Origin: [Candidatus Thermochlorobacteriaceae] bacterium GBChlB
Lineage (GTDB): Bacteria > Bacteroidota > Chlorobiia > Chlorobiales > Thermochlorobacteraceae
Assembly: GCA_000724175.1 (NCBI GenBank)
Contig: JPGV01000044.1
Coordinates: forward strand, 1-44,714
Reading direction: 5' to 3'
Length of the DNA: 44,714 nucleotides
Within the stretch, counting starts at the first letter, position 1. Each line of letters opens with the position of its first letter. Shown one piece after another: positions 3,470-41,427 of this stretch. The translations under genes and the position numbers were made by a program. The notes beneath the pieces were generated by a model. The model saw nothing but the letters and a program-made list of their open reading frames with translations. It did not search any database and was not told the origin of the DNA.

Positions 3470-5104
3470 ATGATAACGGTTTCAGGCGTAACCAAATCTT
3501 TCGGCGGACGCACGTTGTTCGAGAACGTCAATGTGCAATTCACGCCCGGCAAACGCTACGGCTTGACAGGACCCAACGGCGCGGGCAAATCAACGTTTAT
3601 GAAAATTCTACAGGGCGATGAAGAGACCACCACTGGCACAGTGAGCCGACCGAAAAAAGTCGGCATTCTTAAACAAGACCAATTTCGTTACGACAATTTT
3701 CGAATCATTGATACCGTCTTGATGGGCAATGCCACGCTCTGGGCAGCACTCGAGGAGCGCGAAAAACTCTATGCTGAGCCAACACTCACCGACGAGATGG
3801 GTTTGCGCTTAGGCGAATTAGAAGGCATCATCGCCGATGAAAACGGTTACGTCGCCGAACAGCACGCTGCCGAACTCTTAGAGGGCATCGGCATTCCCGA
3901 AGAAAAACATACCGACCTGATGAAGACGCTGCCGACCGATTTGAAGTTCCGCGTTCTCGTTGCGCAAGCGCTCTTCGGCGACCCAGAGGCGCTGTTGCTC
4001 GATGAGCCAACCAACTATTTGGACTTGCAGTCAATTCACTGGCTTGAAGAAACCTTGAAAGCCTACACGGGAACGCTCATTGTCATTTCGCACGACCGAC
4101 ATTTTCTCAACTCGGTTTGCACGCATATCGCCGATATTGATTACGAAACCGTGATTATCTACACGGGCAATTACGACGACATGGTGGCAGCGAAAATTCA
4201 AGGGCGCGAAAAAATCGAAGCGGAAAACCGCGAGAAGGCGAAGAAAATCGCGCAGCTGCAAGACTTCGTCGCACGCTTCGGCGCTGGCACGCGCAGCAGC
4301 CAAACACAATCGCGCCTCAAAGAAATCAAGCGCCTTGAGCCAACCGAACTGAAAAAATCGAACATCCAGCGACCATATATCCGATTCGACATCAAGCGTG
4401 CGTCGGGCAAAGAAGTGGCAACGCTCAAATCGCTATCGAAATCTTACAAACAAAACGACGGCTCGATGCTGCATGTGATTAAAGATTTCTCGATGCAAAT
4501 TATGCGCGACGAAAAAATTGCAGTCATCGGCAACAACGGCGTCGGCAAAACCACACTCTTGCGAATGATTGTGGGCGATTTGACGCCCGACGCAGGCGTC
4601 GTCGAGATGCGCTCCGAAGTCTCTTTCGGATACTTTCCGCAGGATTACAAAACAGGCATCAAGCCCGGAATGACGGCTTATGATTGGCTGGCAAGTTTCG
4701 CGAAAGATGAAGGCAAAGAAGTGCTGCGTGGCTTGCTCGGACGAATGCTGTTTAGTGGCGACTCGGCGTTGAAGCAAACCGACAATCTATCGGGCGGCGA
4801 ATCGGCACGGCTGATTATGTCCAAACTCATGCTGGAACAAAATAACTTTCTCATTCTCGATGAGCCGACAAACCACTTAGATTTGGAATCGGTCAGCGCG
4901 CTTGCACAGGCGTTGGAACTCTACAAAGGCACGGCGATTTTCGTCAGCCACGACCGCGACCTTGTCAGCCAAGTTGCCACGCGCATCATCGCGATCACCG
5001 ACGACGGCATCGCTGATTTTTCAGGAACATACGACGAATACCTCGACGCCTTGGAGAAGGGCAAACCCAGCGCGCTGCCGAAAAAACACGCTGCGTTGCT
5101 CTAA
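3470..5104 (+). CDS. ABC-F family ATPase, YbiT-like ribosome-associated factor
   Basis: Soluble protein of 544 residues with two ABC ATPase domains and no membrane segments, as in ABC-F translation factors that act at the ribosomal E site. Domain 1 has Walker A GPNGAGKST (34-42) and Walker B LLLDEPTNYLD with catalytic Glu about 179. Its signature is degenerate (TDLKFRVLVAQAL instead of LSGGQ), a trait shared with YbiT. The linker (about 240-300) is highly charged and would reach the peptidyl-tRNA. Domain 2 has Walker A GNNGVGKTT (354-362), signature LSGGESARL (about 440-448) and LILDEPTNHLD (Glu about 465). The gene ends directly against the convergent universal stress gene with no spacer. 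YbiT identity is by domain pattern and length; function is inferred. Confidence 0.92.
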   Translation: MITVSGVTKSFGGRTLFENVNVQFTPGKRYGLTGPNGAGKSTFMKILQGDEETTTGTVSRPKKVGILKQDQFRYDNFRIIDTVLMGNATLWAALEEREKLYAEPTLTDEMGLRLGELEGIIADENGYVAEQHAAELLEGIGIPEEKHTDLMKTLPTDLKFRVLVAQALFGDPEALLLDEPTNYLDLQSIHWLEETLKAYTGTLIVISHDRHFLNSVCTHIADIDYETVIIYTGNYDDMVAAKIQGREKIEAENREKAKKIAQLQDFVARFGAGTRSSQTQSRLKEIKRLEPTELKKSNIQRPYIRFDIKRASGKEVATLKSLSKSYKQNDGSMLHVIKDFSMQIMRDEKIAVIGNNGVGKTTLLRMIVGDLTPDAGVVEMRSEVSFGYFPQDYKTGIKPGMTAYDWLASFAKDEGKEVLRGLLGRMLFSGDSALKQTDNLSGGESARLIMSKLMLEQNNFLILDEPTNHLDLESVSALAQALELYKGTAIFVSHDRDLVSQVATRIIAITDDGIADFSGTYDEYLDALEKGKPSALPKKHAALL

Positions 5105-5968
5105 TCATTCCGGCTTACGCACTACCAGCACAGGACACTCGCTGCGGCTTGAAACTTCCACTGCGGTTGAGCCTAAAAAAAACTGTTTGAATCCGCCCAT
5201 GCCGTGCGCCGATAAAATGGTCAAATCGATGTTTTGCTCTTTGGCATATTTGACGATAGATAAGCCCGGCGTAACGCCCTTGACATCGTCGTTCAAAAAA
5301 ACCCGCTCAATGCCCTGAAGTACTGCCTGCCGTTTGAGCGCATCGAGTTCGCGCTTTGGGTCTTTTGCAGTGACATTGCTAATGTGCGCTTGTCGGTAAT
5401 GGACGAAATGCACGTCGGAGTTGTATTCTTTGGCAAACTTAAAGACAAAGGGCAGCGACAGTGCGGCGAGTTCTGAAAAATCGGTCGGAAACAAAATTCG
5501 AACAGGTCGGAATTTCTGTTCGGGCTTTGAAAATACCATAAGCGGACACGGCGCAGTGCGAATAATGCGATATGTAGTGCTGCCTAAAATAAATTGATTG
5601 GTGATGCCCATGCTGCGTGTCGACATCATAATCATGCCCACGTGAAACTTCTTTGCGTTTTGAACAATCGTATCGGCGGGCTTGCCGAACGTCGTAACCA
5701 TTTCCGACGGCATTCCGCGCAGTTTCGGGACAATTTGCAAGTTCAACCGATTGTGTGAGTCCTGCTCTAAGGTGCGGCGCAAGGTTTGCATATCTTTTTC
5801 GCTGCGACGATACGTGGCATATTCGGGCGCGGAATCATCAACGACATTAATCGCAATGATTTTTGAGCCGAACAGTTCGCCGACCCGAATGGCATGGTCA
5901 ACGACGCTTTGAGATTGAGGAGAGAAATCGACAGGGCAAAGAATTGTTCTGACGACGGGCTGAAGCAT
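5105..5968 (-). CDS. Universal stress protein with two UspA domains
   Basis: Tandem UspA protein of 287 residues, probably cytosolic. Domain 1 begins ILCPVDFSPQSQSVVDHA (about 9-26) and domain 2 begins RILFPTDFSELAALSLPF (about 157-174), each the first strand and helix of the Usp fold. Both domains end in a phosphate-loop-like stretch: GITNQFILGSTTYRI in domain 1 and GMGGFKQFFLGSTAVEV in domain 2, close to the G-x2-G-x9-G(S/T) ATP-binding motif. Domain 1 has a degenerate first Gly. Proteins of this class are induced by stress or stasis in many bacteria; the role here is not known. The stop abuts the convergent ABC-F stop (TAA at 5102-5104, then this stop at 5105-5107). Confidence 0.93.
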   Translation of the reverse strand: MLQPVVRTILCPVDFSPQSQSVVDHAIRVGELFGSKIIAINVVDDSAPEYATYRRSEKDMQTLRRTLEQDSHNRLNLQIVPKLRGMPSEMVTTFGKPADTIVQNAKKFHVGMIMMSTRSMGITNQFILGSTTYRIIRTAPCPLMVFSKPEQKFRPVRILFPTDFSELAALSLPFVFKFAKEYNSDVHFVHYRQAHISNVTAKDPKRELDALKRQAVLQGIERVFLNDDVKGVTPGLSIVKYAKEQNIDLTILSAHGMGGFKQFFLGSTAVEVSSRSECPVLVVRKPE

Positions 5969-22726: not shown

Positions 22727-22745
22727 TCACATTTTGAACGGAGCT

Positions 22746-24044
22746 ATGAGCAGTATGATCAACGACGAAAAATTTTCAAGCCTCTTCAACATTTTAAGCG
22801 ACGCGCAAAAAGATTCGCCTGTCGAAGAAACCAATCTGCACCCGCAAACGATGTGTCCGGCGTTTGGCGGCTTGCGCGTCGTTACGCGCATCGACGGCGC
22901 GCAGGTCTGTATGGCGACGGACAAAGGCTGTATGTATGGACTGACATTTGTAACGCATTTTTACGCCGCTCGAAAATCCATCGTCTCGCCTGAACTGATG
23001 TCGACGCAGCTCTCAAGCGGCTCGATTGTCCCCGATATTCGCGCCACGATTGAGGAAATCGCCAAAGACGAAACCGTGCGGCTGATTCCCGTGGTAAGTT
23101 TATGCGTTGCCGAAACGGCTGGTCTTGCCGAAGAGTTACTCCCGAAAAAAGTTGGAAATGCGGAGGTCGTGTTGGTGCGATTGCCCGCGTATCTTATCAA
23201 ATCGCATCCCGAAGCCAAAGACATCGCGTTGGAATCGTTACTCAAACGCCTTGCAGATTTTTCAAAGAAACGCGAGAAATCGGTGTTGATTGTCGGCGAA
23301 ATTTTCCCGCTCGATGCCATGGCGATTGGCGCGGTGTTGCAAAAAATCGGCGTTGAATCCGTCATCACGTTGCCCTCTCAACATATTGATGATTTCCGCG
23401 AGGCAGGCAGCGCAAGTGCGGTTGCTGTGCTACACCCGTTCTATGAACTCACCGCTGAATTTTTCGAGAAAAATAAAACACCGATTATCGGTGGCAATCC
23501 CGTCGGCGCAAATTCAACTTACAAGTGGATTAAAGACATTGGCGCAGCATTGAAGTTGGACGAGGCATTGGTCGAGCGCGTTGCGCAGGAGGAAAAAGAA
23601 AAAATCAAAGCGGCAATTGCAGCGCGCAAATCGGGCGGCACGGTGATTATCGCAGGCTACGAAGGCAATGAATTTCCGCTGGTGCGGCTTTTGCTCGAGT
23701 CGGGCGTCGCCGTGCCGTACGCGTCTACCTCGATTGCGCATACCAAACTCGGCGACGACGACCACCGCTTACTCACAATGCTCGGCACAGACTTGCGCTA
23801 CCGCAAATACTTGGAAGAAGACCGCCGTGCGATTTTAGAACATAAGCCCGATTTAGTTGTCGGGACGACATCGCTCGACAGTTACGTCAAAGAACTTGGG
23901 ATTCCAGCGGTGTATTACACGAACATTGTGTCATCGCGCCCCATTTACTTCGCGCAAGGTGCGGCGACGATGCTCGACCTGATTCAGTCGCTCATCGCCA
24001 AGCGCCCTGCTTTCGAGAAAATGAAGACATTTTTTGACGCCTAA
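22746..24044 (+). CDS. bchY: Chlorophyllide a reductase subunit Y
   Basis: Subunit of the nitrogenase-like BchXYZ enzyme that reduces ring B of chlorophyllide a on the way to bacteriochlorophyll a. The start used is ATG 22746, preceded by GGAG at 22740-22743; a TTG at 22734 is in frame but unlikely. The 432-residue protein has NLHPQTMCPAFGGLRVVTRI (30-49), DKGCMYGLTFVTHFYAARKS (59-78) and VVSLCVAE (116-123). Cys37, Cys62 and Cys120 are placed as iron-sulfur ligands as in BchY/BchN relatives. AVLHPFYELTAEFF, GGNPVGANSTYKWIKDIG and GTTSLDSYVKELGIPAVYYTNIVSSRP follow, the last being typical of the BchY C-terminus. No bchX or bchZ lies in the window. It follows the HU-SPOR gene by 19 bases and is the best evidence that the organism is phototrophic. 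Confidence 0.92.
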   Translation: MSSMINDEKFSSLFNILSDAQKDSPVEETNLHPQTMCPAFGGLRVVTRIDGAQVCMATDKGCMYGLTFVTHFYAARKSIVSPELMSTQLSSGSIVPDIRATIEEIAKDETVRLIPVVSLCVAETAGLAEELLPKKVGNAEVVLVRLPAYLIKSHPEAKDIALESLLKRLADFSKKREKSVLIVGEIFPLDAMAIGAVLQKIGVESVITLPSQHIDDFREAGSASAVAVLHPFYELTAEFFEKNKTPIIGGNPVGANSTYKWIKDIGAALKLDEALVERVAQEEKEKIKAAIAARKSGGTVIIAGYEGNEFPLVRLLLESGVAVPYASTSIAHTKLGDDDHRLLTMLGTDLRYRKYLEEDRRAILEHKPDLVVGTTSLDSYVKELGIPAVYYTNIVSSRPIYFAQGAATMLDLIQSLIAKRPAFEKMKTFFDA

Positions 24045-24853: not shown

Positions 24854-25304
24854 ACTGCAAAGCGGGTTAGAATTGAGCAAAATTTTGTATCGCCTTTTTA
24901 ACCCAAACCTGCCGCGCTTCGTTTCACAGAAGGTGCTTTTTCGCCGTCCGTTTTCCACTAAGCGATTCGGCTCAGTTGGGCGAAGCACTCCGATGAAGCT
25001 CTTTGCTCTTTCAAGCGTCGCAAGCGCGCCTTGATAAGTTCGTCAAGATGACATAAAAGCGCAACCTCTCCGGCGCGCTGCCGAGATGCGGAAAGTGGTC
25101 TGCGTGCATTGAAGGCTGCCGTCGTTTGCTCCGCCCAAGCGTTTATCAACGAGAGACGCAAGACGAGCGCATCATATTTGAATTTAACGATGGCGAGATG
25201 AAACCGATTCTAACGCTCACAAGCAGCGTGTGGCTTAGCGGCGGCGTTGATTGCGCCATGGCGGTCGCACTAACGTTGCGGCTAACATGCCGAGATTAAA
25301 GGCG
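24854..25304. other. Intergenic region, no convincing gene
   Basis: About 450 bases. The minus strand has two weak open frames and the plus strand a 33-codon frame at 25198-25299 that reads MKPILTLTSSVWLSGG near its start. None has a recognised family or ribosome binding site. It may hold the remnants of a lost gene and the control region of the methyltransferase. No terminator for the opposing kinase gene was seen. Confidence 0.4.
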
Positions 25305-27452
25305 TCAGGCACTTGCGCGCTGAATATATCTTGAATCCGAGTCGCTTGTTTTTTTGGCGGCTAACTCGACAAAAAATGTCGTGCCTTGGTCTTTGCCTGC
25401 GCTCTCTGCCCACACCCGTCCGCCGTGCAGTTCTACCAATTGCTTGACAATTGACAATCCAAGTCCCGTTGAACTCTCGCCGCTTGTTGGTCGAGCCGAT
25501 AAGCGTTGAAATTTTCCGAACAGCTTTTTCTTGTCGTCGTCCGTTAAGCCTTGTCCCTCGTCGCGAATGGAAATCAGAATACAGGAGTCAGAAGACGGAA
25601 GTGTGTTTATTGCGTCTGTTCCCGGTCGTCTGATTCCTGTATTTCTCTTCATTTCCACATAAATGGTTTTTCCCGTCGGAGAGTATTTGATGGCGTTGCT
25701 GATGAGATTATCAAACACGTCGCGCATACGTTCTGCATCAATGTTGGCAAAGAGGTTCGGCTCAATGTCGCAAATGAACTGTTGATGTTTTTGCTCGGCT
25801 TGCGCGTGATTCTGCTCGACGACCAACTCGAGAAGTTGCGAGACCGAGGTGTCGCGTTTGTTGAGCTCGAATTTGCCTGATTCAATTGCAGCACTTTGAA
25901 GCAATCCTGAAATCAAATTCAGCATGCGTGTCGAGGCGCGTGTGATGGCGTTAGTCATCAACTCAACTTCCGGATTACCGCGATTTTTTTCTTCAATCAA
26001 CGCTGCGAATCCCATAATGCTTTGCAATGGGTTCTTTAAATCGTGCGCTGCAATCGAGAGCAGTTCCGACTTAAACGCGTTGGCAGTTTGCGCAGCGTTC
26101 CGCTCGGCTTGTGCAATAAGCCGTTCCTGTGCAAGTGCTTGATTGAGCGCCGTCAAGGCTTGATTTTTCCGCTGTTTCTGGCGATACCCGTTGGCGACGA
26201 GCAAAGCGATGAGTGAGACCAAAACGACGCCGCCGATAAGCGAATTTCGGACAAGGTCTTGATTCTCGGTTTCTTTTTTAAGCATCTCAATTTGGCGTTG
26301 CTGCTTCTCGCGCTCCAATTTCGATTGCAAGGAAGCAATGTTTTTCTGCATCTCAATTGAGATGAGGGAATCTTTCAACGCAATGAACTTTTGTTGATAC
26401 TGCCAAGCTGACTGGAAATCTTTCTTTGCACTATAAATGGCGGCCAGAATCCAACACGCATCTTTGATTTCACTACGCCCGCCGACCTCTTGCGCCAGCT
26501 CGAGGCCCTTCCGTCCGTAGCGCAGCGCATTGTCGTAATCCTGCATGGCAAAATAGACGCCGCCGATGTGAACAAGCGACTGTGCCACATACAGCCGCAC
26601 TCCCAGTGACTCCCGAATTTCCAATGCTCTGAAATGAAACTTCAACGCCTTATCATTTTCGCCGCGCAGGGCGTAAATCTCTCCCAAATTGTTGAGTGCC
26701 AAATCGGCATAGCGCTTATCGTTGATGATGTTGCTTAGTTCAAGTGCCTGTTCGGAATAGGTCAAGGCTTGGTCATAATCGCGCCGAAGTTTATAGCTAA
26801 TCGCGATGCCGACAAGTGCGGAACATTCACTGTCTTGTAAGCCAATGCTGCGGCTGAGCGTAAGGGATTTTAAGCCATACTCCAGACCGTCGTCGGGCAG
26901 GTGTTGAGAATTGTAGACATCGGCGATGTTATTGAGCGACCAACATAGTCCGCGCGTGTCGCCTATTTCTTCGCGCAGTCGCATGGCGGCAAAGTGATAT
27001 TCCAACGCACGGTCGAAGTTGCCTTGGTAGTTATTGATACTCCCTAAACTATGGTAACACCATGCAACCCCTGCTTTATCCCCAACGGCTTGGTATGCCG
27101 CAAGGCTTCTTTGCCGCATAGGCAAGGCATCAGCGTATCGACCTTGCCGCTCCGCCACATAGCTCAATGCGTTGAGTGCGTTGGCAATGCCGTGTGTATA
27201 TCCAGCGGCTTCGGAGAGCGTCAGTGATTCTTGGGCGAAGCGCACAACGCTGTCGTGGGATGTGCGCCAATAGAGTCGGGTGAGGGCGTAGAGCGCGTCG
27301 GCGCGTGACTCAACAGATGAGGCACTACGATAAACCTGTTTTAAGCTGTCGTATTTGGTCGTCAGCTCTGAGGGGTGCTCATGAGCATGGCTCTGAATAG
27401 ACAGCAGAGCTCCCCACAAACAAACCCAGATATAACAGGCTGACCAATGCAT
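25305..27452 (-). CDS. TPR sensor histidine kinase
   Basis: A 715-residue kinase from the ATG at 27452; a GTG at 27461 is an alternative. The order is: signal peptide or anchor (about 1-24), six to seven TPR repeats (about 40-370, e.g. GVAWCYHSLGSINNYQGNFDRALEYHFAAM), a coiled coil, one membrane segment (about 401-421, SLIGGVVLVSLIALLVANGY), HisKA with phospho-acceptor His470 in LLSIAAHDLKNPLQSIMGF, and HATPase_c with N-box VFDNLISNAIKYSP, G1 DEGQGL and G2 GESSTGLGLSIVKQL. The HATPase domain is interrupted at about residues 603-626 by an in-frame palindromic repeat. It is the last gene of the Bat operon strand, 62 bases from batE, and could sense periplasmic state through the TPR part. No partner regulator is adjacent. 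Confidence 0.92.
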   Translation of the reverse strand: MHWSACYIWVCLWGALLSIQSHAHEHPSELTTKYDSLKQVYRSASSVESRADALYALTRLYWRTSHDSVVRFAQESLTLSEAAGYTHGIANALNALSYVAERQGRYADALPMRQRSLAAYQAVGDKAGVAWCYHSLGSINNYQGNFDRALEYHFAAMRLREEIGDTRGLCWSLNNIADVYNSQHLPDDGLEYGLKSLTLSRSIGLQDSECSALVGIAISYKLRRDYDQALTYSEQALELSNIINDKRYADLALNNLGEIYALRGENDKALKFHFRALEIRESLGVRLYVAQSLVHIGGVYFAMQDYDNALRYGRKGLELAQEVGGRSEIKDACWILAAIYSAKKDFQSAWQYQQKFIALKDSLISIEMQKNIASLQSKLEREKQQRQIEMLKKETENQDLVRNSLIGGVVLVSLIALLVANGYRQKQRKNQALTALNQALAQERLIAQAERNAAQTANAFKSELLSIAAHDLKNPLQSIMGFAALIEEKNRGNPEVELMTNAITRASTRMLNLISGLLQSAAIESGKFELNKRDTSVSQLLELVVEQNHAQAEQKHQQFICDIEPNLFANIDAERMRDVFDNLISNAIKYSPTGKTIYVEMKRNTGIRRPGTDAINTLPSSDSCILISIRDEGQGLTDDDKKKLFGKFQRLSARPTSGESSTGLGLSIVKQLVELHGGRVWAESAGKDQGTTFFVELAAKKTSDSDSRYIQRASA
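25576..25646. repeat. Palindromic element inserted in frame inside the histidine kinase gene
   Basis: The left arm (25578-25592, AATACAGGAGTCAGA) is an inverted copy of the right arm (25629-25643, reverse complement AATACAGGAATCAGA; 14 of 15 match). The inner flanks GACGG and GACCGG extend the pairing. The element is about 71 bases and adds about 24 codons to the ATPase domain. The CAGGAGTCAGAAGAC type of sequence resembles short heptamer-like repeats scattered in several phototroph genomes. The pairing is seen directly; mobility is inferred. Confidence 0.75.
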
Positions 27453-27513
27453 CTTGTTCACTTACTCGAAAAATATTGCTCATACTGCTTTGACGACAGT
27501 TAGTTTCACAACG

Positions 27514-41361: not shown

Positions 41362-41391
41362 AATGCACGCCGCGCACTTCCATAAAAATCA

Positions 41392-41420
41392 TAAAGCCTC
41401 GATTGTGCATCGAGGCTTTA
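41392..41420 (+). terminator. Intrinsic terminator after the quinone reductase gene
   Basis: A perfect 12-bp stem TAAAGCCTCGAT/ATCGAGGCTTTA has a 5-base loop and is followed by TCTTTTTG. It starts 31 bases past the stop. The minus strand also has a T-rich run beyond the hairpin, so it may work in both directions. Confidence 0.85.
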
Positions 41421-41427
41421 TCTTTTT

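Follow-up and report, generated by a model that had tools for sequence, protein, structure and literature searches.

The question raised by this locus is how a palindrome came to lie in frame inside a histidine kinase gene, and whether it is a dispersed, Rickettsia-like repeat, as a preliminary description had it, or an inherited part of the protein. The window, meaning the whole stretch of 44,714 nucleotides that was analyzed, belongs to a host genome of 3.05 Mb in 51 contigs. Near the kinase it carries bchY (chlorophyllide a reductase subunit Y) at 22734-24044, which reached 540 bits against TIGR02015 (cut-off 425), and the genome is thus that of a phototroph. No clear gene was seen in the roughly 450 bases (24858-25304) that separate the kinase from a methyltransferase gene, and one minus-strand frame, when translated, gave several stops. 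The kinase gene and its two domains are as follows:

25305..27461, minus strand: sensor histidine kinase (718 aa) with TPR repeats, HisKA and HATPase_c; from the open reading frame and domain searches.
25875..26072, minus strand: HisKA domain, residues 464-529; coordinates computed from residue numbers.
25359..25739, minus strand: HATPase_c domain, residues 575-701; coordinates computed from residue numbers.

Both domains scored above their curated cut-offs and the H-, N- and G-box motifs are present; on these sequence features, the product is classed as a HisKA/HATPase_c histidine kinase, and the kinase core is intact on either side of the palindrome, as had been stated. Its best named relatives are Candidatus Thermochlorobacter and other Thermochlorobacteriaceae.

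The palindrome itself is real and lies in frame within the HATPase domain, with arms of 19 nt that are complementary at 17 of 19 positions and 28 nt apart, whereas arms of 15 bases (14 of 15 matching) had been reported before:

25625..25643, minus strand: palindrome arm, 5' in the coding strand, AATACAGGAATCAGACGAC; inverted-repeat search.
25578..25596, minus strand: palindrome arm, 3' in the coding strand, GTCTTCTGACTCCTGTATT; the plus strand shows degenerate TCAGAAG-like heptamers; inverted-repeat search.

The predicted fold of this strand reached -25.3 kcal/mol (z -5.1), better than all 200 of 200 shuffles. Taken singly within the window, however, the palindrome is only moderately unusual. 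The window holds one other inverted repeat of equal score (41385-41427), and when the whole window was shuffled by dinucleotides, 1 of 20 shuffles also attained it. The second repeat, with 19-nt arms (89% complementary), a 5-nt spacer and a T-rich end, is terminator-like. These frequencies would suit a quasi-palindrome that arose by chance in an ordinary variable loop, with the heptamer-like and the inverted character having no common origin, but further results make such a coincidence unlikely. Within the loop, the inverted repeats of the window gene and of its sister kinase L014 (C20:222455-223243) were each better than 100 of 100 shuffles, the two being homologous and not independent. Among 75 distinct HATPases, this pair had loop palindrome scores of 14 and 15, while the next best was 10. 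Finally, a strict triple-heptamer pattern matched the genome three times, each match falling in one of these two loops; control matches there numbered zero, and 12 relatives had no match.

The heptamer-like character of the arms, noted from the start, was seen again as degenerate units of the TCAGAAG type. Such units occur in the two kinase loops and at one ftsW end, and background matches with three mismatches are similar in number. At the latter place (G000:C6:15443-15476; L096, L217), an ftsW-like gene directly ahead of murG has about five TCAGAAG-like heptamers at its 3' end; they encode the tail RSEKTEVRS, to which the ftsW tails of relatives are unrelated. This array was considered as a second palindrome copy and rejected, since it is an array of a single orientation at a gene end and the tails of relatives do not resemble it. 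The distribution hints that heptamer arrays may grow locally, although the numbers are too small for proof. A search of the literature for these heptamer strings returned nothing.

One alternative is an RPE- or MITE-like mobile palindromic element that was inserted in frame into kinase genes and of which few copies survive. The in-frame inverted repeat, as in Rickettsia-type palindromic elements, the heptamer-like arms and the additional array at the ftsW-like gene would all agree with this, and so would a loop that is closer to that of L014 than its flanks are, because an independent insertion would give the same picture. However, the copies in the host genome are not distributed in this way. 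BLASTN with a 101-bp query returned three other strong places (C20:222663, C20:28621 and C6:41362) and nothing comparable beyond. All three are sister kinases, in which the same codons are affected and about 220 bp can be aligned together with the flanks at 87, 84 and 80% identity. Besides the sister kinases, searches with the arms gave the array at the end of the ftsW-like gene and a small number of background matches, and neither these searches nor BLASTN found a full-length copy outside the kinase family in the host genome. Hence, several copies in unrelated genes or spacers, as expected of a Rickettsia-type element, were not seen; the search for in-frame copies within different genes, from which the idea of a dispersed repeat could have gained, yielded none of full length, and the mobile-repeat reading fails on this point. 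Among 40 relatives, all outside the genus of the host bacterium, BLASTN with the 76-bp element gave best matches of only 15-26 bp, and those examined lay in unrelated, non-palindromic sequence. As palindrome-free loops also reach a similar length, we regard a mobile element as quite unlikely, and membership of the palindrome in an RPE-like family is not supported by the sequence comparisons.

What the palindrome shares with its relatives is a position in the protein, namely a beta-hairpin of the HATPase domain:

25575..25658, minus strand: hypervariable beta-hairpin loop with its edges, residues 602-629, VEMKRNTGIRRPGTDAINTLPSSDSCIL; low-confidence and disordered in the structure model.

The AlphaFold model of the kinase core had a mean pLDDT of 89 and a pTM of 0.81, and its top structural matches were histidine kinase cores. 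The loop lies between strands 145-153 and 173-179 of the model, where pLDDT drops to 52. The extra in-frame residues were correctly placed at first sight, in a tolerant hairpin loop that joins the strand preceding the G1 box to the one after it. The distance from N-box to GxG in the 75 distinct HATPases was most commonly 37 residues and at most 70, compared to 54 in the window gene. Loops ranged from 6 to about 33 residues across 46 sister kinases of five genomes, a range that describes the relatives, none of the same genus, as well. The net gain is thus 17 residues over the commonest form instead of the approximately 24 first proposed, and long loops are ordinary in the family. They occur at the same site in most paralogues of the host genome and in many of those in relatives, and it is common for a loop about as long to hold no palindrome.

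The loop also evolves differently from its surroundings. A comparison of the window gene with L014 gave 4, 5 and 3 differences at the first, second and third codon positions of the loop, as opposed to 0, 0 and 12 in one flank and 3, 2 and 25 in the other, indicating a loop without codon constraint between strongly constrained flanks. Three sisters have the palindrome, clear or weak, in the same register; among them, none of 24 base pairs had changed on both sides, and 10 departed solely via unpaired cells. The consensus of these three contains a perfect core of 14 bp, longer than in any single one of them. In two sisters whose loops are homologous, most of the pairing is gone (11 and 13 of 28 positions). 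This pattern fits an old inverted repeat that is now eroding rather than a selected structure. The palindrome would have no selected role, and the loop would be functionally neutral. A selected nucleic-acid structure controlling the kinase gene, be it an mRNA hairpin for translation pausing or a DNA cruciform, would be in line with the strong predicted fold and the missing codon constraint, but is very unlikely in view of the uncompensated breaks between paralogues, the lost pairing in the two sisters and an Rfam search of the window that gave no match.

The relationship among the sister kinases is not uniform along the gene. For the four closest, identity was 52-59% in the HisKA half and 82-94% in the HATPase half, a contrast which suggests that HATPase segments may have been exchanged between paralogues. 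Within the HATPase domain of the window gene, a second discontinuity surrounds the loop, involving L014 and a further sister, L012 (C6:40854-41603):

25584..25656, minus strand: mosaic segment, L014-like at 24 of 24 informative sites, with L012-like flanks on both sides; most of the palindrome lies inside; outer limits 25561-25658.

The flanks are 92-94% identical to L012 and 82-84% to L014, whereas the loop is approximately 50% identical to the loop of L012 and 83% to that of L014. Informative sites favored L012 over L014 by 0 to 24 in the loop and by 61 to 12 in the flanks (12 of 73 L014-like; Fisher p = 4e-14), and none of 20000 permutations matched the run of L014-like sites in these 73 bases. 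The number of such sites in the loop is small because the loop evolves fast, and, since most sisters agree in the bases that follow, the segment does not quite reach the outer end of one arm, missing it by a few bases. Divergence from L012 was 0.44 in the loop and 0.10 at third positions of the flanks (p = 2e-7), while the corresponding values against L014 were 0.14 and 0.40 (p = 2e-4). When loop and flanks were compared in all ten pairs of five sisters, of which L021 has diverged further and is aligned less securely in the loop, eight pairs were concordant and two discordant. Both discordant pairs contain the window gene, which points to it as the recombinant.

A segment whose closest paralogue differs from that of its flanks, with sharp borders, is the picture of a gene-conversion recombinant. 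Flank similarity alone would be compatible with gene conversion, unequal crossing over or domain duplication; we infer that gene conversion, and not another form of recombination, made the mosaic. The mosaic could have arisen by transfer of the loop or by replacement of the sequence on both sides of it. In a relative, the neighboring sister kinases L199 and L203 (G002:C8:6440-7270 and 4340-5190) share 95% identity in HATP-C, 60% in HATP-N and 52% in HisKA, and the step from 60% before the loop to 95% after it implies that the loop can also lie close to the end of a conversion tract. An assembly error is an unlikely cause of the mosaic: a mis-join should leave identical sequence, but the window loop has 12 differences from that of L014 over 84 bases, and the flanks are not identical to L012 either.

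Taken together, the palindrome is probably part of a variable sister-kinase loop with an ancestral, decaying inverted repeat, and the window gene a likely gene-conversion recombinant of its sisters. The starting point would be a long, disordered beta-hairpin loop of the HATPase domain in an expanded sister-kinase family of a phototrophic Thermochlorobacteriaceae-like bacterium. One ancestral version of this loop may have held an imperfect inverted repeat of TCAGAAG-like heptamers, which would then decay separately in every sister gene, while the sisters trade HATPase segments via gene conversion; the window gene would thereby join an L012-like HATPase domain to an L014-like loop. The computed evidence for this account comprises the shared position, the variation in loop length, the lack of codon constraint in the loop and the discordant similarity of loop and flanks. 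A gene-internal palindrome resembling a mobile insert could hence be inherited instead, as a decaying part of a variable loop that recombination between paralogues has spread. Far more speculatively, the palindromic loop might act as an exchangeable cassette, with the inverted repeat promoting short recombination events by which sisters swap surface loops, so that the core is homogenized and the contact surface diversified. We give this idea a low probability; if true, a bacterium with dozens of related kinases could homogenize the catalytic core and yet keep distinct surface loops.

Rickettsia palindromic elements (RPEs) occur in many unrelated genes. As in the window, a palindrome is there read in frame as extra residues at a tolerant site of the protein, but copies of the window palindrome are confined to one homologous position of one kinase family. 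PMC5896051 refers to Ogata et al. (2000 and 2002) for protein-coding palindromes. QMITE2 of Coxiella, an intragenic MITE (PMC5896051), is likewise an inverted-repeat DNA able to add in-frame residues, and in contrast to such elements no dispersed copies of the window palindrome were found. The arms, read as tandem seven-base units, recall the cyanobacterial STRR (short tandemly repeated repetitive) sequences and the TAACTGA repeats of Beggiatoaceae (PMC4679880); however, the window has three or four degenerate units per place at very few places, and these are TCAGAAG-like and not TAACTGA. A further parallel is gene conversion, or concerted evolution, of paralogues, which passages of PMC6053082 and PMC4632066 treat as a general process in prokaryotes; to this known process the window gene adds a modest new example. 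As is usual for it, one segment is homogenized while the remainder of the gene has diverged, but the unit exchanged or spared in the window is a short hypervariable loop with a palindrome.
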